DNA from: a virus
DNA: 40,441 nucleotides
IMG/VR virus record: IMGVR_UViG_3300047550_001415
Span: 1-40,441 of that record
Strand: one strand, 5' to 3'
A program made the translations under genes and the position numbers. Below are positions 23,492-37,790 of the stretch, in pieces. Numbering within the stretch: position 1 is the first letter of the stretch; the number at the start of each line of letters is the position of its first letter. The notes under the pieces were generated by a model that was not told the origin of the DNA, did no database searches, and worked only from the letters and a program-made list of their open reading frames with translations.

Positions 23492-24145
23492 ATGATAATC
23501 TCATTAAACCATAAAATATTATTCTTTCATATTAGTAAAACTGCAGGTACAAGCATATCATTGATGCTTGAAAATATCTGTGATGATGCCAAATCTAGTT
23601 TCAACAAAATATTCCTAAATAATATACACAATCAAGCAGTAAGACACATCAAAGACAAATTAGACTTGATGCAAAGTAATCGCTATCCGTTCACACATAT
23701 CACTCAAACCGACGCTAGGCCTTTTCTACAATTATCAAACATAGATACATCAGATTTCAGTGAGTTTATCATAGTCAGGAATCCATATGATAGGCTTAAA
23801 AGTCAGATGATATACCAGGGGCTAAATGAACAATACTCTGTCGATCACTTCTTGAATAGATATGAAAGCCTAAATTCAAGCCCTTCTGGGTATTGGTTCT
23901 GCAGGCAGATGGAATATATCAAGGACCCTATCACTAAAAACCTGCAAATCTATAAGTATGAAGAATTAAACAAATTATGGCCTTTCCTAGCCAATATTAA
24001 AAAAAATAAGCCATTCGTTGTAAAAAGAGTCAATGAGACTGCGAATAAAGATGTGAAGATAGAATTTACATTAGCACAGAAAAAACGCATATATCATATG
24101 TGGCGAGAAAGTTTCGAATATTTGGGCTACCCTAAAGGCTTTTAG
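23492..24145 (+). CDS. Sulfotransferase family protein
   Basis: 217 residues. The PAPS 5'-phosphosulfate loop FFHISKTAGTSIS (residues 11-23) and the 3'-phosphate motif EFIIVRNPYDRLKS (91-104) are both clear, as in Sulfotransfer_2-type enzymes acting on carbohydrates. The C-terminal region (KKRIYHMWRESFEYLGYPK) resembles the end of that family. No signal peptide or membrane anchor is present, so it would act in the cytoplasm, perhaps on host or phage glycans. It needs host PAPS. It sits between Dps and a late-type promoter and looks like an accessory gene. Confidence 0.72.
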   Translation: MIISLNHKILFFHISKTAGTSISLMLENICDDAKSSFNKIFLNNIHNQAVRHIKDKLDLMQSNRYPFTHITQTDARPFLQLSNIDTSDFSEFIIVRNPYDRLKSQMIYQGLNEQYSVDHFLNRYESLNSSPSGYWFCRQMEYIKDPITKNLQIYKYEELNKLWPFLANIKKNKPFVVKRVNETANKDVKIEFTLAQKKRIYHMWRESFEYLGYPKGF

Positions 24146-24269: not shown

Positions 24270-24842
24270 ATGCGAATCCGCGATCTTACTAACGAGGCTA
24301 GCCCTGATACACTAGAAGGAAGTTTCACAGACGATCTGGTGAATAGTAAGTTGTGGCTATGTGACAAGTTAAAGCAAGGCCTCAAAGGTAGATGCGCTAG
24401 AACTATCTATGTTTTAGGTAGTTGGTATGGTAATCTAGCCATGTTACTGCAAAAAGAAGGTATCACTTTTGATGACATCGTGTTAGTAGATATTGATGAA
24501 AAAGTTTTAAGAACTAGTCAGAATATGTTAAAGCCTTTTTTCAAGCCAGGCAAACTCATATTCTTAAACACAGACGCTAAAGATGTGATTTATGACAAGC
24601 CCGGGATTATCATCAATACTAGCGTCAACGATATGAAGACAGATTGGTTTGATGATGTACCTGAAGGTAGGAAGATCATCATACAAGGTCGTGATCAGGC
24701 AAGCGATGCTGTGACTAAGATCGCAGACATGAAACAGTTCGATGATATGTTTCCCATGACTAAAACATATTATCTAGGTAAGCGTGACTTCACTGATCCA
24801 GAGACGGGTTATACAAGATATATGAAGATAGGCGTGAAATGA
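24270..24842 (+). CDS. SAM-dependent methyltransferase-like protein
   Basis: 190 residues. After a capsid-targeting-like start (MRIRDLTNE|AS) comes a Rossmann pattern: glycine-containing motif I YVLGSWYGNLAMLL (about 47-60), an acidic strand end IVLVDIDEKVL (about 70-80), and strands GKLIFLNTDA and GIIINTSVNDM. These fit class I methyltransferase motifs I-III, although motif I lacks the usual GxGxG, so activity is uncertain. The C-terminus (YYLGKRDFTDPETGYTRYM) is conserved-looking. It overlaps the next gene by four bases (ATGA). The substrate is unknown. Confidence 0.55.
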   Translation: MRIRDLTNEASPDTLEGSFTDDLVNSKLWLCDKLKQGLKGRCARTIYVLGSWYGNLAMLLQKEGITFDDIVLVDIDEKVLRTSQNMLKPFFKPGKLIFLNTDAKDVIYDKPGIIINTSVNDMKTDWFDDVPEGRKIIIQGRDQASDAVTKIADMKQFDDMFPMTKTYYLGKRDFTDPETGYTRYMKIGVK

Positions 24843-25603
24843 GAGCAGACGAATTTATACAAGAAGGTGTCAATGATCCTGCTATCTTTAAGGTAGTGTT
24901 CGTTATCGGTGGTCCTGGCAGCGGCAAGAGTTATGTCAGCCGTGAACTAGGACTAAATGCTATGGGTTTCGTAACAGTCAATAGCGATGTGGCATTTGAA
25001 TACCTCATGGGTAAGCATGGTATCGATCCTAAGATGCCTCCTGAAGAAAAAGAAAAGCGTGATGTTGTCAGAGCAAGAGCCAAAGAGATAACAGGTAAAA
25101 AGTCTGACCTAGCAATCGAGGGCAGACTAGGTATACATATAGACGGTACCGGAGATGACTATGATAAAGTAGCGAATCTCAAAAAGAATTTTGAACGATT
25201 GGGCTATGACTGTTACCTAGTAGTAGTCAACACAAAATTAGAAGTAGCAAGACAACGCAATCAAATGAGAGCGAGAACTGTTCCTGATAAGATCGTCACA
25301 AACAGTTGGTATGATGTACAGGACAACATTGGTAGATTCGCTAACATCTTTACATATATGAGCATCATAGATAATAGCGGCGATGCAAAAGCAACGGACG
25401 AACAAATAACAAAAATACACAGTAAATTGCAAAGGTTTGCTGATAGCGAACCTACTAAGCCTGCTGCTAAAGAATGGATAGCCAATCAGAAAAAAGTAAA
25501 TGAGAAATGGAGCGCAAAGTACAAGCGTAGCATCAACTGCAATAATCCAAAAGGATTCAGTCAGAGAGCGCATTGTCAAGGTCGCAAGAAGAAAACAAAG
25601 TAA
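24839..25603 (+). CDS. P-loop kinase (zeta toxin / AAA_33-like) with capsid-targeting-like N-terminus
   Basis: 254 residues. MRADEFIQE|GV is the closest match in the window to the T4 capsid-targeting peptide and its gp21 cut site. Walker A GGPGSGKSYVSREL follows at 24-37, then FVTVNSDVAFEYLMG (substrate-binding strand) and an acidic strand DLAIEGRLGIHIDGTG. Downstream NTKLEVARQRNQMRAR resembles the kinase LID arginines of zeta toxin and polynucleotide kinase relatives. The last 30 residues are a basic two-Cys module (KRSINCNNPKGFSQRAHCQG) known from other aquatic phage proteins. The phosphate acceptor is unknown. Confidence 0.65.
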   Translation: MRADEFIQEGVNDPAIFKVVFVIGGPGSGKSYVSRELGLNAMGFVTVNSDVAFEYLMGKHGIDPKMPPEEKEKRDVVRARAKEITGKKSDLAIEGRLGIHIDGTGDDYDKVANLKKNFERLGYDCYLVVVNTKLEVARQRNQMRARTVPDKIVTNSWYDVQDNIGRFANIFTYMSIIDNSGDAKATDEQITKIHSKLQRFADSEPTKPAAKEWIANQKKVNEKWSAKYKRSINCNNPKGFSQRAHCQGRKKKTK

Positions 25604-25604
25604 A

Positions 25605-27056
25605 ATGAGAGCAAGTGAATTTTCAGTTCCAGAGATTGGTATCAATGTCCGCAGTGATGGGGACATAGGTTATGCCGACCTTATCGTAGACGGACAAAAG
25701 AAACTTGAGACACGAAATACTGATAGCCTGCGACCATATGTAGGCAAGCGTGTCAGCATAGTTAAGACAGGTAAGGGTAAAGCATATGCTATTGGTGTAG
25801 CAACTGTAGGCGAACCTATAGAAGCAGACGAAGAAAAATTCCGTAAACTTGAAAAAGAACATCTAGTACCTGCAGGTAGCAAGTTTGATATACAGCCCGG
25901 ATCTACAAAATTCTTATATCCAATGCTCAATCCTAAACGCTATGACAGACCCAGAGAAGTTGGTCATGGTATAGTCAGTCGTAAAGTGTTTGTTGAAGAT
26001 GAAAATGGTAAACTAGCCTGGCGTATACGATTCCGTCGCTTCAAAGACTTGTCACCATTGATGCCAGAGCGTGAGAACAAAATCTATCTTATGCCTACAG
26101 ATCATTCAGCACTGCGCACATTTGGTAATTTGACAGGCAAAGATGATGAGAAGATTACTAAAATGCCAACAGAAGCATATCTTGTTAGTGGTGATGCTAG
26201 AGTTGGCGACATGAGCATTATCAATGCTATACATCGTGAATTACAAACTACCAAAGATCAAGAGAGAATAGAGAAACTAAAGAAACTATATCTAAACACT
26301 AGCGTGCCTTATAGTCAATATCGTCCAGGTGTATTCAAGTATCCAGAAATACTAGCAGAGCCAAGTCAACTTACAAAGTTAGATAAGACCGTGTCATACA
26401 ATAAAAACACCGGTGAAATTGATATCAAAGACAAGGCAAACGAGAACCTTGCATTTGAAGCACAGATGGATGATGTAGGCAAATTTATCAATAACGCATT
26501 ACAAAAAGCAGGATATAAGTTTATAGGTAGCGGATATGACGCGCAGGTATGGATGAAGGATGAAGGCACGGTTGTCAAGATATTGATGCCCGAAACCCAA
26601 GAGAACGAAGCGATTGACAGTTTCAAGTCCTTTTATAATTTTGTCAAAAAGAATCCTAGCCCTAATCTACCAGTCTTTAAGAAGGTAGATGGTCGTGAAG
26701 TATATAAGTTCACATTGAAAGGCAAGCCATTCATGCAGTTCGGTATGGAACAACTGTATCCTATACAAGAAGGATCACTAGATGAATGGGTAGTATGGAT
26801 GATGGCCGATCTAAGTGCTAAAGGTCTAGATTGGGCAAATGCAAAAAATCAGATGAGTATCGAGGATGATGAACATGCTGAAGAGTTTAAAGCCCAAAAT
26901 GCTAGCAAAATTAATGGATATAAGTCATTATATGAGACATTGCTTAAACTCTACAAAGCAGGTATGAAAAAAGGTTATGGTTGGGACCCACATACAGAAA
27001 ATGTGATGAAGCGTAGTGACGGCACACTAGTCATAACAGATCCATGGTCAGTCTGA
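25605..27056 (+). CDS. ASCH-like domain fused to a protein-kinase-fold domain
   Basis: 483 residues from ATG 25605, two bases after the preceding stop; an in-frame start at 25500 would overlap heavily and is rejected. The N-terminal domain (about 14-95) reads GYADLIVDGQKKLETR...YVGKRVSIV, the ASCH/PUA-like pattern that binds RNA or modified nucleotides. A middle region (120-250) is unassigned. The C-terminal 190 residues look like a kinase fold: glycine loop GSGYDAQVWM (308-317), VVK lysine K325, catalytic-loop-like D461-x4-N466 (WDPHTENVM) and DFG-like D479 (ITDPW). Kinase activity is plausible. The N-terminus MRASEFSVPE is a variant of the capsid-targeting-like peptide. Confidence 0.55.
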   Translation: MRASEFSVPEIGINVRSDGDIGYADLIVDGQKKLETRNTDSLRPYVGKRVSIVKTGKGKAYAIGVATVGEPIEADEEKFRKLEKEHLVPAGSKFDIQPGSTKFLYPMLNPKRYDRPREVGHGIVSRKVFVEDENGKLAWRIRFRRFKDLSPLMPERENKIYLMPTDHSALRTFGNLTGKDDEKITKMPTEAYLVSGDARVGDMSIINAIHRELQTTKDQERIEKLKKLYLNTSVPYSQYRPGVFKYPEILAEPSQLTKLDKTVSYNKNTGEIDIKDKANENLAFEAQMDDVGKFINNALQKAGYKFIGSGYDAQVWMKDEGTVVKILMPETQENEAIDSFKSFYNFVKKNPSPNLPVFKKVDGREVYKFTLKGKPFMQFGMEQLYPIQEGSLDEWVVWMMADLSAKGLDWANAKNQMSIEDDEHAEEFKAQNASKINGYKSLYETLLKLYKAGMKKGYGWDPHTENVMKRSDGTLVITDPWSV

Positions 27057-27086: not shown

Positions 27087-27470
27087 ATGAAAATTTTTGA
27101 AGTTATTGAAGCAAGAAAAGGTCCAGTTGACGACTTTGAGGATGATGATGCACCTGTTCAAGATGCCGATCTTGACAAGATTCCTAACATTCTTGTGCAG
27201 ATGCGCAAGGCAATCGACGTTGATGGTAACTATGATTTTAAGTTTAAAGATGGTAGCAAGCATCAACTCGGCATGGAAGACATCATGAAGTTCGTGAAGA
27301 AATTACTGACTTCTAAACCTCTTGAAAGAGAGAAGATGCAGAACAAGGCTATAGAAAGCCTCGAAGGTTTAATGTCAGTACTTAATGCTGAAGAACCAGC
27401 AAAGCCAGATATGAAAATTAAAGGTGACCGCTACATGTCACACTTCAGCGGAGACTTAGACGATAAGTAA
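27087..27470 (+). CDS. Small acidic protein with capsid-targeting-like start
   Basis: 127 residues. MKIFEVIE|ARKG resembles the T4 capsid-targeting peptide, with Val-Ile-Glu at the expected cut position. An acidic stretch (DDFEDDDAPVQDADLDK) is followed by a helical domain (LVQMRKAIDV..., EDIMKFVKKLLTSKPL) and an acidic tail. No catalytic motif is seen. It has its own late-type promoter and could be a small internal head protein analogous in position, not sequence, to T4 IPI-IPIII. Confidence 0.5.
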   Translation: MKIFEVIEARKGPVDDFEDDDAPVQDADLDKIPNILVQMRKAIDVDGNYDFKFKDGSKHQLGMEDIMKFVKKLLTSKPLEREKMQNKAIESLEGLMSVLNAEEPAKPDMKIKGDRYMSHFSGDLDDK

Positions 27471-29425: not shown

Positions 29426-30688
29426 ATGATAAGAAAGATCCTTGTGTTGGCCACAATCGCTGCCACTCTAGGCGGCTTGCCAGCATATTCACAAACTACA
29501 AATACAAGCACACAGAGTACGACTGGTGGCACAACCACTAGCACGACTTATCCTATCAATCAAGGCGGTTATACAAGCACTAGCCTAGTTGATACAAACA
29601 GCACTAGCAATAGCACAAGTTCTGTCACTACTAACAATACCACGAACACAAATAGCACTAGTACTAGCACGGTCAATACGACCAATGCTAACACGAACAC
29701 TAGCACTAGCACGAATGTCAATACAAATAACAACATTCAAAGTGGTACTGTGACAAACATCAATCAGAATACCACTAACGGTACTGTGACTTATAACAAC
29801 AATAATGTTAATAGTGGTTCTGTAACATATACTAACAACAATAACAATGTCAACAGCGGAACAGTAACTTATAACAATAATAACAACATGAGTGGAACTG
29901 TGACAAACAATAACAATAATGTTAGTACTAGCACTAGTGTAAACACAAATAACAATATCAATAGTGGTACTATGACTTACAACAACAATAATGTAAGCAC
30001 AGCGACCAATATCAACAAGAACGAGAATACTGGTACCATGACTTACAATAACAATAATGTAAGCACAGCGACCAATATCAATAAAAATGAAAACACAGGT
30101 ACTATGACTTATAACAACAATAACAATAGTACTAGCGCAAGCACAAGCAACAATACTAATACTAATATCAACACCGGTGACATGACTAACCGTAACATCA
30201 ATACAACAACAAGCAATAATGTAAACACCAATAACAATAATAGCACTAGCAGTAACACCAATGTAAACATACAACAAGGTGAGATGACTAACCGCAATAT
30301 CAACGAGACTGTTATCCGTCAGAAGGTAGAGCAACCTCCTCCAACTGCTATAGCACCTCCAATGATGAGCGTGGGTAGCGATCTTTGCGTAGTAGGCGTA
30401 AGCGGAGCCGCACAGACACAGATATTAGGTGCGAGTTTTGGTTCAACGATGCGTGATGAGAATTGCGAAAGAATCAAGATGAGCAAGACATTATATGACA
30501 TGGGCATGAAAGTTGCCGCTGTCGCTATGATGTGCCAAGATGAGCGTGTATTCAAGGCTATGGAGATGGCAGGAACCCCTTGCCCATATATGGGTAAGAT
30601 CGGTACTGAAGCGACTACTGCATGGGTTGACAACAAGAAAGAGCGCCCAGATAGTAAGAAGAAGGGTTTGTTTAGTTGGTTCCAATAA
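29426..30688 (+). CDS. Exported Asn/Thr/Ser-rich repeat protein
   Basis: 420 residues. Signal peptide MIRKILVLATIAATLGGLPA with likely cleavage near AYS-Q. Residues about 25-295 are almost only Asn, Thr, Ser, Gly and Val, in repeats such as NTGTMTYNNNNVSTATNINK that alternate like a beta-solenoid or amyloid-type curlin repeat. The C-terminal 110 residues form a normal domain with four cysteines (DLCVVGVSG, ENCERIKMSK, MMCQDERVF, TPCPYMG). I know similar C-termini from aquatic phage genomes but no function. Export suggests action in the periplasm or on the cell surface. It overlaps the next exported gene by one base. Confidence 0.55.
   Translation: MIRKILVLATIAATLGGLPAYSQTTNTSTQSTTGGTTTSTTYPINQGGYTSTSLVDTNSTSNSTSSVTTNNTTNTNSTSTSTVNTTNANTNTSTSTNVNTNNNIQSGTVTNINQNTTNGTVTYNNNNVNSGSVTYTNNNNNVNSGTVTYNNNNNMSGTVTNNNNNVSTSTSVNTNNNINSGTMTYNNNNVSTATNINKNENTGTMTYNNNNVSTATNINKNENTGTMTYNNNNNSTSASTSNNTNTNINTGDMTNRNINTTTSNNVNTNNNNSTSSNTNVNIQQGEMTNRNINETVIRQKVEQPPPTAIAPPMMSVGSDLCVVGVSGAAQTQILGASFGSTMRDENCERIKMSKTLYDMGMKVAAVAMMCQDERVFKAMEMAGTPCPYMGKIGTEATTAWVDNKKERPDSKKKGLFSWFQ
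29968..30110 (+). repeat. About 66-bp near-perfect coding repeat in Asn-rich protein
   Basis: The block beginning actatgacttacaacaaca and containing gtaagcacagcgaccaatat is present twice in tandem (about 29968-30033 and 30034-30099), followed by a partial third copy. The copies differ mainly at synonymous positions (tac/tat, aag/aaa). Confidence 0.75.
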
Positions 30689-33274: not shown

Positions 33275-33465
33275 TTGAAGTCTATAAAGATTATCCTAGA
33301 CGATATATAGTGACCAACAAGAATAAAATCTTGTTGGTTACCTATGACCATAGGATCGCAGAAACGCTTGAGCGAGATATAGCAAAAAACGACTATCCTG
33401 CGCATTATATGCTGCGTATAGAAGCAAGGGTAGAAAGCAATGGATTAGTGTACAAGCGAACTTGA
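33271..33465 (+). CDS. Small hypothetical protein
   Basis: 64 residues in an ATGA overlap with the coiled-coil gene. Basic beta/alpha pattern (MIEVYKDYPRRYIVTNKNKI, LLVTYDHRIAETLERDI). No recognisable family. It ends two bases before the GATAAATA motif of the following gene. Confidence 0.5.
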   Translation: MIEVYKDYPRRYIVTNKNKILLVTYDHRIAETLERDIAKNDYPAHYMLRIEARVESNGLVYKRT

Positions 33466-33466
33466 C

Positions 33467-33474
33467 GATAAATA
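33467..33474 (+). promoter_or_regulatory. Putative late promoter (GATAAATACTCTA) giving a leaderless mRNA
   Basis: GATAAATACTCTA runs directly into the ATG at 33480; only five bases separate the motif from the start codon. T4 late transcripts begin about 6-7 bases after the core, which here is the ATG itself. Confidence 0.5.
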
Positions 33475-33479
33475 CTCTA

Positions 33480-33989
33480 ATGCGTTGTTACGAATTCATT
33501 ACCGAGCGCAAGAAGAAGCGCAGCAAAGTTAAACTCAGTAAATACTTTTTTCCTGGGTTCGCTTACTACGGCGGTACATCTGACTCAAGTGACATGGGCG
33601 GTGGGGATGGCGGTGGCGAAAGCATGTATGAAGATGTTGACACCGCTAGTGAAGTCGAGAAATTCAAGGATTGGGCATGTAAGAGATTACATATCAAGAA
33701 GCCGCCCGTGATTGAATTGAGCATGGATACAGAAGAAGCACAGACTAATCATCACACAGGTGGTCATATCATAGGTGACGATAAGATTTGGGTCTATGCT
33801 AAGAACCGCAATCTTGTAGACATACTACGCACAGTATTTCATGAATTGGTTCATGTTCGCCAGGGTGAATTGAACATGGTTAATAATGATGATAGTTATC
33901 CTGGCAGTGCTATCGAATCAATGGCAGATATGCTTGCAGGCAAGTATATTAAAATTTATGGAAAAGAAAATAACAAGATTTTCCAATAA
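33480..33989 (+). CDS. HExxH zinc metallopeptidase with capsid-targeting-like N-terminus
   Basis: 169 residues from ATG 33480; the earlier in-frame TTG at 33462 falls in the previous gene. MRCYEFITE|RKKK matches the T4 capsid-targeting pattern, including Ile-x-Glu. After a basic stretch and a Gly/Asp/Ser-rich linker comes VFHELVHVRQGEL with zinc ligands H121 and H125 and catalytic E122. E146 in AIESMADMLAGKYI is a likely third ligand, giving a gluzincin-type site. The domain is small, like minigluzincin or SprT-type peptidases. If cleaved and packaged, it would be a protease delivered into the cell with the DNA; this is inference. Confidence 0.65.
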   Translation: MRCYEFITERKKKRSKVKLSKYFFPGFAYYGGTSDSSDMGGGDGGGESMYEDVDTASEVEKFKDWACKRLHIKKPPVIELSMDTEEAQTNHHTGGHIIGDDKIWVYAKNRNLVDILRTVFHELVHVRQGELNMVNNDDSYPGSAIESMADMLAGKYIKIYGKENNKIFQ

Positions 33990-35825: not shown

Positions 35826-36124
35826 TTCTTCTTTATTTCATCGTATGTTTGTACTATCTTCAACTTATTTAGATCGTGAGATTTATCATAAGGGACGGGT
35901 AGTTCTTGCCACTCTTCTTCAGTAGCGTCACATGTGATCAACACTTCATATTTATGTCCATCGCTTGTGTATAGTTCTACCTGCTCAAGGCCTAACACGC
36001 TGTTACCCGCTTTGGTCAATGCTGTGCCTAATGCTTTTAATGCGGCTCTCTCACCTACGATAATAGCTCTTCCGTTTGGTTCGTTATGGTTCTGTATATG
36101 TAATCTTGCTTTAGCGGTTAGCAT
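35822..36124 (-). CDS. Hypothetical protein between DnaE-like and amidotransferase-like genes
   Basis: 100 residues. It overlaps the end of the DnaE-like gene by 14 bases and the next gene by 4, so translation is coupled. N-terminal RLHIQNHNEPNGRAIIVGER, then AALKALGTALTKAG and QVELYTSDGHKYEVLITCDA suggest an alpha/beta fold. A regulatory or accessory role with the polymerase-like protein is possible. No family recognised. Confidence 0.5.
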   Translation of the reverse strand: MLTAKARLHIQNHNEPNGRAIIVGERAALKALGTALTKAGNSVLGLEQVELYTSDGHKYEVLITCDATEEEWQELPVPYDKSHDLNKLKIVQTYDEIKKK

Positions 36125-37790
36125 TTAATAAATCCCTTAATTTGAATCTCTTATGCTTATTTACTGTCACATATTCGCTGTTATTTTTATATCCCAATTT
36201 ACCTACACCCCATAGTATAGGTTGTTCATGGAAACTTACCGCACGATCTATTATGACATCTAGATAGCGGCCATTACCTGTACCGATAGTCACAAATGTG
36301 ATATATTGTTTGGGGGCAGATTTGAACACACGATAGTTCGCAACCAAGCCGCAAAATTCAACTTCTCCGGGCTTGCGTATCTCGGCACACACAGGCAAGA
36401 ACTTGTCACTATGCCAATGTCCTTGACTCATCATTTCATTGACTTCATTGCCCTCATATGTGACAGGTATAGCACCGGCCAGTTTAGCCTCATGATGATA
36501 TACCCAACGGCTATAACTGCCCTGACAGTGCTTCAATGTTGCAGCCCAAAACTTTGTGGGGTTATGTGCTTTCTGATATGCTATGGCCCATATCAATCGT
36601 CCAAGATTGATAGCATGTGCGCGGCATAGTCCAAAGTTGCTGAGTTCACGCAATGCCGCAAGTATCTCATTCTTATGTTCATGGTTGCCGATCTTTTCCA
36701 TGAACTCATAAATCTTTTCTTCATTCTTTTTAGCAAAGGCACGACGCCACATATCTGCTTCATATTGGCTGCAACCAAGTAACTGGCTGATGAGTATGAT
36801 AGCATCATCTTCAAATACGATAGTGTTATCAAAAGTATCCTTGCTCCAATCACGGAAGAAACTTGCTTTTCTACGACCTTGTGTTGCTACCGGGCGTATC
36901 AATGCTGTAGCCAATACACAATCTTCACGGCTCTTTGGCTTGATCGCTCTTAACAATCTACGCATAGCAGGACTCTCTGCCTGCGTGACCCCAAGCACGT
37001 TGCCACTACTTAACAACTCGGCAGTTTTTTCGTCATGCTCAGGATAATCTAATAAATTTCTTGTATGGTCAATTTCAAATAATTGACTTAGACCACGGTT
37101 AGCAAGTATATCAATCTTGAAATGCTCAAGGTCTTCTATCTCATACTTGTCAAGCAATATCTGATTAGTACCATTAATTAAACTCTTAGGTACTGGTCTA
37201 TCAAATATCAATATACCACCGCAATGTTTGCTGATACAGCGTTTCTTGCCTAATAGTTTCTTAGCAAGTTTCTCGGCATCTTCAACAAACTCCGGTATAA
37301 CCTCTTCAAGTTTGAAGTTGCGTTTGAGTTGTCCTTTAGCCCCAAATCGTTTTGCAGCCTCACGCAAGGCTGACTTCTCTTTGTACATCACATAGTTACT
37401 AACTCTTGCTGATTGACCTTTCCATTTATCAAAGATACGGTTCATGACCGTCTCTTGTTGGAAGTGTGGGAAGTCTAAATCAATGTCTGGTAAGTCATCA
37501 CGCTTTGGATTCATGAATCTTGACAGTGGTATGTTTTCCTTGATAGGATCTACATCTGCTATGCCAAGCAACCAACATAACAAACTACTACCCGCAGATC
37601 CGCGAGTCATATGTGGTATGTCTTTGGTGAGATCAAGTATTTCTACTACACGCAGGAAGTGTTTGGCAAAGCCTAATTTGGCTATGAGTTCAAGTTCTTC
37701 TTCTAATCGTTTTTCATATTCAACACCTTCTGGTAAGGTGCGTACAAATTTACTAATGAGTGTTTCCAACTCTTTATATCGTGAGTCCAT
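36111..37790 (-). CDS. PHP-less DNA polymerase III alpha-like protein (family C core)
   Basis: 559 residues. Motifs in DnaE order: palm loop TRGSAGSSLLCWLLGI (62-77; DnaE GRGSAAGSLVAY), catalytic PDIDLDF with D104 and D106, HCGGILIF (189-196; DnaE HAGGVVI), third catalytic aspartate D227 in HFKIDILA (DnaE KFDFLGL), LGVTQAESPAMRRLLR (266-281; FQLESRGMKDL), ADMWRRAFAKK (346-355), LCRAHAINLGRLIWAIAYQK (388-407; fingers) and an OB-fold-like region (479-520). The N-terminal PHP domain and C-terminal tau-binding region are absent; bacterial DnaE has about 1160 residues. All three catalytic aspartates are kept, so it may be an active polymerase, unusual beside a gp43 enzyme. Confidence 0.8.
   Translation of the reverse strand: MDSRYKELETLISKFVRTLPEGVEYEKRLEEELELIAKLGFAKHFLRVVEILDLTKDIPHMTRGSAGSSLLCWLLGIADVDPIKENIPLSRFMNPKRDDLPDIDLDFPHFQQETVMNRIFDKWKGQSARVSNYVMYKEKSALREAAKRFGAKGQLKRNFKLEEVIPEFVEDAEKLAKKLLGKKRCISKHCGGILIFDRPVPKSLINGTNQILLDKYEIEDLEHFKIDILANRGLSQLFEIDHTRNLLDYPEHDEKTAELLSSGNVLGVTQAESPAMRRLLRAIKPKSREDCVLATALIRPVATQGRRKASFFRDWSKDTFDNTIVFEDDAIILISQLLGCSQYEADMWRRAFAKKNEEKIYEFMEKIGNHEHKNEILAALRELSNFGLCRAHAINLGRLIWAIAYQKAHNPTKFWAATLKHCQGSYSRWVYHHEAKLAGAIPVTYEGNEVNEMMSQGHWHSDKFLPVCAEIRKPGEVEFCGLVANYRVFKSAPKQYITFVTIGTGNGRYLDVIIDRAVSFHEQPILWGVGKLGYKNNSEYVTVNKHKRFKLRDLLNANR

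Follow-up and report, generated by a model that had tools for sequence, protein, structure and literature searches.

This locus raises the question of what a viral protein that carries an ASCH domain and a kinase-fold domain on one polypeptide might do. The window, i.e., the whole stretch of DNA analyzed, is a virus record of 40,441 bases (IMGVR_UViG_3300047550_001415), and the protein, here called P0001, is encoded in it by a single uninterrupted ORF (Table 1). The two-module ORF described by the first-pass annotation was confirmed as real, and its remark that no such arrangement had been described also holds: ASCH and kinase were not found together in one protein in any other locus that we fetched, and we found no paper on it. 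A start at a second in-frame ATG, at position 25500, would overlap the upstream gene; the start given in Table 1 is the likely one, because standalone ASCH genes begin at the equivalent position. Annotated phage records held no close relative of the whole protein or of its first 287 aa; the kinase part matched there weakly, in several cases to entries labeled as phage protein kinases. Neither P0001 nor its ASCH part had a match in PDB sequence searches, and the single-sequence structure prediction of the full-length protein was unusable (pLDDT, 35).

Table 1. Features of P0001 and its surroundings (window coordinates)
Feature	Position	Strand	Basis or remarks
Complete ORF, ASCH - middle - kinase	25605..27056	+	483 aa; ATG at 25605, stop codon ends at 27056
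N-terminal MRASEFSVPE, T4 capsid-targeting-like, possible cleavage after E10	25605..25634	+	T4 ipII/ipIII comparison
ASCH domain, aa 10-130, octapeptide G30-x-K32-x-x-E35-x-R37	25632..25994	+	Pfam; 22 relatives; alignment
Middle region, aa 131-286, inside swapped block	25995..26462	+	No relative found in any of several kinds of search
Kinase-fold domain, aa 287-483, T7 gp0.7-like; G308/G310, K325, E382, D461, N466, D479	26463..27053	+	phrog_15752; alignment; AlphaFold2; Foldseek
Swapped block, no homology to L001	25600..26480	+	DNA comparison with L001
Zeta-toxin/polynucleotide-kinase-like ATPase, N terminus MRADEFIQE, C-terminal SINCNNPKGFSQRAHCQGRKKK	24839..25603	+	Upstream of P0001; fused in frame to kinase in L001 (3057-4841)
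DNA of SINCNNPKGFSQRAHCQGRKKK tail region	25514..25599	+	Common to L001, L002, L003, and L009; left boundary of swapped block
Neighbor, N terminus MRIRDLTNE	24270..24842	+	Methyltransferase-like at best (weak Pfam)
Neighbor, N terminus MKIFEVIEA	27087..27470	+	Conserved in synteny

The C-terminal domain resembles the protein kinase of phage T7. The profile phrog_15752, which represents T7 gp0.7-type protein kinases, matched aa 293 to 482 of P0001 with an E value of 2.3e-9 (3.1e-10 for the domain alone); T7 gp0.7 itself matches this profile at 1.7e-46, and the profile of T7's own family, phrog_2828, gave 0.09 against P0001. The kinase motifs of P0001 are the glycine loop IGSGYDAQV, the lysine of VVK325, D461-PHTE-N466, and D479-PW. 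Relatives were collected from IMG/VR by a protein search and then by a degenerate DNA pattern for the catalytic loop WD[PL]HTENVM, which gave 51 stretches. Across 42 aligned kinase domains, residues G310, K325, P356, M381, E382, L384, D461, N466, R470, V476, D479, and P480 were invariant; by analogy with protein kinases, these would correspond to the glycine loop, the ATP lysine, the hinge, the catalytic loop, and the Mg-binding Asp. An AlphaFold2 model of the domain, built on this 42-sequence alignment, reached a pLDDT of 91.5 and a pTM of 0.87, and Foldseek searches of viral models matched it to T7-type "protein kinase" proteins at TM scores of 0.6 to 0.7 (E of 7e-9 at a TM score of 0.69). 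The first-pass annotation would have abandoned its kinase assignment had the C-terminal part adopted another fold or had the motif residues varied in homologues. As a kinase fold is predicted and G310, K325, E382, D461, N466, and D479 are the same in 42 of 42 sequences, that assignment stands.

P0001 had no Pfam kinase match, and a PDB search with the kinase profile returned a Dot/Icm effector (E of 0.002, over about 50 N-lobe residues), followed by weaker matches to other kinases. The dN/dS ratio of the kinase part was 0.075 against L001, the nearest relative, and 0.14 against L002. A search of 84,980 cellular genomes gave no exact match to the DNA pattern for the kinase loop, which suggests, without proving it, that this form of the kinase is viral. 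With the T7 gp0.7 Ser/Thr kinase (PHROG 15752 and 2828), P0001 shares the profile match, the D-x4-N and TDP motifs, and the predicted fold. However, the two are about 21% identical over the aligned part, and T7 gp0.7 has neither an ASCH domain nor a capsid-targeting-like N terminus, while its C-terminal host transcription shut-off domain is absent from P0001. We consider protein kinase activity of P0001 quite probable. That its targets would be host gene-expression proteins, by analogy with those described for the T7 kinase (PMC4858673), is an evenly balanced proposition.

If P0001 is a kinase, the N terminus bears on when it could act. Many genes with kinase or ASCH modules begin M[RK]xxEFIxE, much like the MKTYQEFIAE of T4 IPII/IPIII; in T4, capsid targeting depends mainly on residues 4 and 7 and processing on residues 8 and 10 (PMC9026906). 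The motif M[RKI]xx[EDQN][FILV]x1-3E was present in 23 of the 37 kinase ORFs with a complete 5' end, compared with 0.85% of shuffled kinase N termini, counts that are biased upwards in absolute terms because the script picks among possible start codons. It was also present in 81 of 449 neighboring ORFs, so that it is not kinase specific and might be a common leader with some other role. Standalone ASCH genes have AVPN or AVSN at this place and thus lack the Glu of the possible cleavage site. Like the T4 internal proteins and Alt, which are capsid targeted and injected, the P0001 family appears to combine a short N-terminal M[KR]..EF..E and a common address with diverse payloads. P0001 differs from them in its payload, and its possible cleavage site (SVPE, with Glu at position 10) lies one residue off the FIxE common among its relatives.

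The genomic evidence for a T4-type head comes from the wider family. Full-length gp23 was found in five of the 21 records tested, all five kinase bearing, and a T4-type portal accompanied it in four of these five; S78 prohead protease was found in none of 21 records. The 40-kb window and its four closest relatives, which include one of 150 kb, yielded no gene for a T4-type head, portal, or protease, so that for these fragments the link to a T4 head is by family. The T4-type late promoter TATAAATA occurred once in the window versus 5.0 times expected by shuffling, which lends no support. It is conceivable that the same kinase is made after infection, like T7 gp0.7, and is not packaged, the MRxxEF start serving as another leader (e.g., for translation or scaffold contact). 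In its favor, T7 gp0.7 is produced in the cell early on (PMC4858673), the motif is common across the loci, and the cleavage Glu is inconstant. We nevertheless find this account rather unlikely in view of the close likeness to T4 ipII/ipIII, the presence of the T4-type S77 prohead protease in all five records with full gp23, and the co-occurrence with zeta, GNAT, and nucleotidyltransferase-like domains that injected polyvalent proteins also show. On balance, we lean toward P0001 being packaged and injected, and its capsid-targeting-like N terminus keeps plausible the idea of injection raised in the first-pass annotation. With what appears to be a head-packaging tag on the protein, the virus may supply its bacterial host with a kinase that is already made.

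The ASCH assignment rests on the Pfam profile PF04266 (E of 1.2e-4; 23.2 bits versus a curated cutoff of 21.2), on a length of about 110 aa, and on the octapeptide GQKKLETR, which fits the published GxKxx[ETS]xR and whose fixed positions were invariant in 17 aligned ASCH copies. An ASCH pattern had previously been placed at aa 14 to 95; the domain is there, but its relatives give a wider extent of about aa 10 to 130. These relatives were gathered with a DNA pattern for FLYPMxNP, which led to L220, and with a second search, which yielded 22 loci. L220 encodes an open-ended protein of at least 835 aa, in which a zeta-toxin domain is followed by a P0001-type ASCH domain (50% identity), and L246 carries an 87%-identical copy, MRASEFTVPEIGINV, ended by the contig edge. 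Elsewhere, the domain forms standalone genes of 131 to 135 aa starting MRASEIAVP or MRADEIAVS, or lies within proteins of about 800 to 2000 aa. No kinase was found in the other ASCH-bearing proteins of the 22 loci, L246 ending too early to tell, and the 84,980 cellular genomes held no relative of this ASCH subtype.

The substrates of YqfB-group ASCH proteins are free modified nucleosides (PMC9599836). P0001 has the octapeptide and length of ASCH proteins such as YqfB, but it is fused to a kinase, and the position of the catalytic Thr of YqfB, its nucleophile, is taken by Glu35 (a Glu in each of the 17 copies aligned). As a YqfB-type amidohydrolase uses a catalytic Lys, Thr, and Glu, we rejected such an activity on account of this replacement. 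It is somewhat probable that the ASCH domain of P0001 binds nucleic acid or a modified nucleotide.

The nucleoside chemistry of the YqfB group also enters into another account, in which the substrate of the C-terminal domain is not a protein but a small molecule or nucleotide, as for aminoglycoside phosphotransferases, and the ASCH domain binds a related nucleotide. The best PDB fold matches of the kinase domain were APH(2'') and amicoumacin kinase, and Foldseek gave APH(2'') and PknB E values of about 1e-6 to 1e-5. These matches have low TM scores (about 0.4), however; PF01636 (aminoglycoside phosphotransferase) did not match P0001, and Pfam APH matched just one of the 42 relatives. The sequence profile and the viral fold matches point to T7-type protein kinases, and Glu35 replaces the YqfB Thr. 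We regard a small-molecule kinase as improbable. Among the three comparisons suggested by the first-pass annotation, APH thus found a counterpart in overall fold, whereas HipA and Fic had no Pfam match in P0001 and were absent from the 50 PDB fold matches listed. What that annotation missed is the relationship to T7 gp0.7 and to polyvalent-protein kinases, as well as the exchangeability of both domains within a large family. Its reading is partly supported, and its suggestion that the ASCH domain might guide the kinase to a translation factor or RNA is conjectural.

P0001 stops four residues after D479, and the usual C-terminal subdomain is missing. An end right after D479-P-W would suit a catalytically weak ATP-binding module or a pseudokinase whose role is to bind, such as an antidefense decoy, but D461, N466, and D479 are invariant in all 42 sequences, and T7 gp0.7, with a similar Asp-x4-Asn and TDP, is active (PMC4858673), making such a role very improbable. 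The polyvalent-protein kinases (PF18762; Iyer et al. 2017, PMC5512222) likewise lack the C-terminal subdomain and keep the active-site residues, and like the P0001 family, which includes relatives of >1000 aa, they have varied domain partners beside zeta, GNAT, and nucleotidyltransferase-like domains. They differ in matching PF18762, which gave weak matches in 27 of the 42 relatives (best, 3.9e-5) and none in P0001, and in coming mainly from Verrucomicrobia/Chlamydia and Bacteroidetes elements. Since that work covers truncated kinases and takes T7 gp0.7 as their precedent, this kind of protein is known; the word ASCH is absent from its main text.

How the two domains came together can be read from the nearest relative. 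Compared with L001, the DNA is 94.4% identical from 24271 to 25599, unrelated through the swapped block, and 77% identical from 26481 onward; dS is 0.18 left of the junction and 1.17 in the kinase. The swapped block corresponds exactly to the ASCH domain plus the middle region. In L001, the zeta gene runs in frame into the kinase, and in L002 and L003, the kinase directly follows a short SINCNNPKGFSQRAHCQGRKKK stretch. The breakpoints and the jump in dS indicate that ASCH and middle region occupy an exchangeable slot. These DNA comparisons show that P0001 arose by module exchange, an ASCH-type gene with its own start and a further segment of ~155 aa having been joined to the kinase. That the junction is a chimera of metagenome assembly, as its presence in one record only might suggest, is hardly credible given the unbroken in-frame ORF, the DNA to the left and right that is syntenic with L001, the start-plus-ASCH combination shared by L226, L229, and L246, and the equal GC content of block and flanks. 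For the middle region, a weak match in L011 (E of 0.004), to a short ORF, was judged to be due to chance.

The kinase module itself occurs alone, behind a zeta-toxin-like ATPase, or within proteins of >1000 aa, and other copies are fused to GNAT-like, HAD-like, nucleotidyltransferase-like, and other domains (names mostly assigned by eye; GNAT, in L029 alone, by profile). As in polyvalent proteins, the kinase and ASCH family has several effector domains per polypeptide, shuffled between relatives. Each of the two domains is portable and turns up without the other in many related viruses, and the ASCH-kinase fusion is therefore one reshuffling among many. The largest kinase proteins (L051 7057-10935, L045 1873-5226, L065 2125-5298, and L029 10711-14457) contain GNAT-like, nucleotidyltransferase-like, and other domains, and in some of them, repeated linkers of the GVAE type may be cleavage sites. 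L009 (953-3181 and 4974-5612) has four kinase-family genes in 5 kb, three of which are divergent paralogs lying side by side.

Our best explanation, which we slightly favor overall, is that P0001 is a packaged and injected modular effector, a T7-type kinase acting on host gene-expression proteins with binding supplied by its ASCH domain. The N terminus probably targets the prohead, as in T4 internal proteins, and copies packaged there would reach the host together with the DNA. The C-terminal domain, a predicted compact phosphotransferase of protein-kinase fold and of the T7 gp0.7 or polyvalent-protein kind, keeps the residues expected for ATP binding and phosphotransfer and ends just after the putative Mg-binding Asp479. 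On the T7 precedent, it would most likely phosphorylate host proteins involved in transcription, translation, or RNA decay, and ASCH binding could bring it to its target or to the DNA of the phage itself inside the head. A broader proposal, to which we give somewhat less than even chances, is that a lineage of large T4-type phages has a common pool of effector modules addressed to the capsid (T7-type kinase, ASCH, zeta ATPase, acetyltransferase, nucleotidyltransferase, and others), which recombination places behind one N-terminal address and which reach the host premade. Here, the payload would be an ASCH-guided, T7-like host-takeover kinase that acts before any phage gene expression.

The textbook example of a phage protein kinase, T7 gp0.7, is produced after infection. 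If our explanation is true, a large, apparently virus-restricted family of T7-type kinases with T4-like capsid-targeting sequences in front would imply that in many phages, kinases enter the host alongside the DNA. The N-terminal MRxxEFIxE would then offer a simple sequence rule by which candidate injected effectors could be picked out among environmental phages. In the literature searched, we found neither the ASCH-kinase pairing nor a T4-like address on this kinase family.

Several features of the surrounding DNA are also worth pointing out. The stretch W[ST]xKYKxSI[DN]CxNPKGFSQ[KR]AHCxGRKK (window 25514-25599; L079-L198) was seen in at least 118 distinct ORFs, often just after a hydrophobic-x-Glu that resembles a prohead-protease site. 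A glycine-rich protein with an MRxxEFITERKKK-type start is kept in several of these phages (window 33462-33989, L019 10856-11407, and L229 657-1403). The window has a sulfotransferase-like gene (23492-24145) that is missing at the syntenic place in L001. A low-complexity Asn/Thr-repeat protein with a signal-peptide-like start in L001 (7228-8304) is syntenic with window positions 29426 to 30688, where the DNA aligns repeatedly. Finally, a 559-aa protein encoded on the minus strand (window 36111-37790) covers the middle of a DNA polymerase profile (positions 363 to 828 of 1190) and is possibly a split or shortened polymerase.
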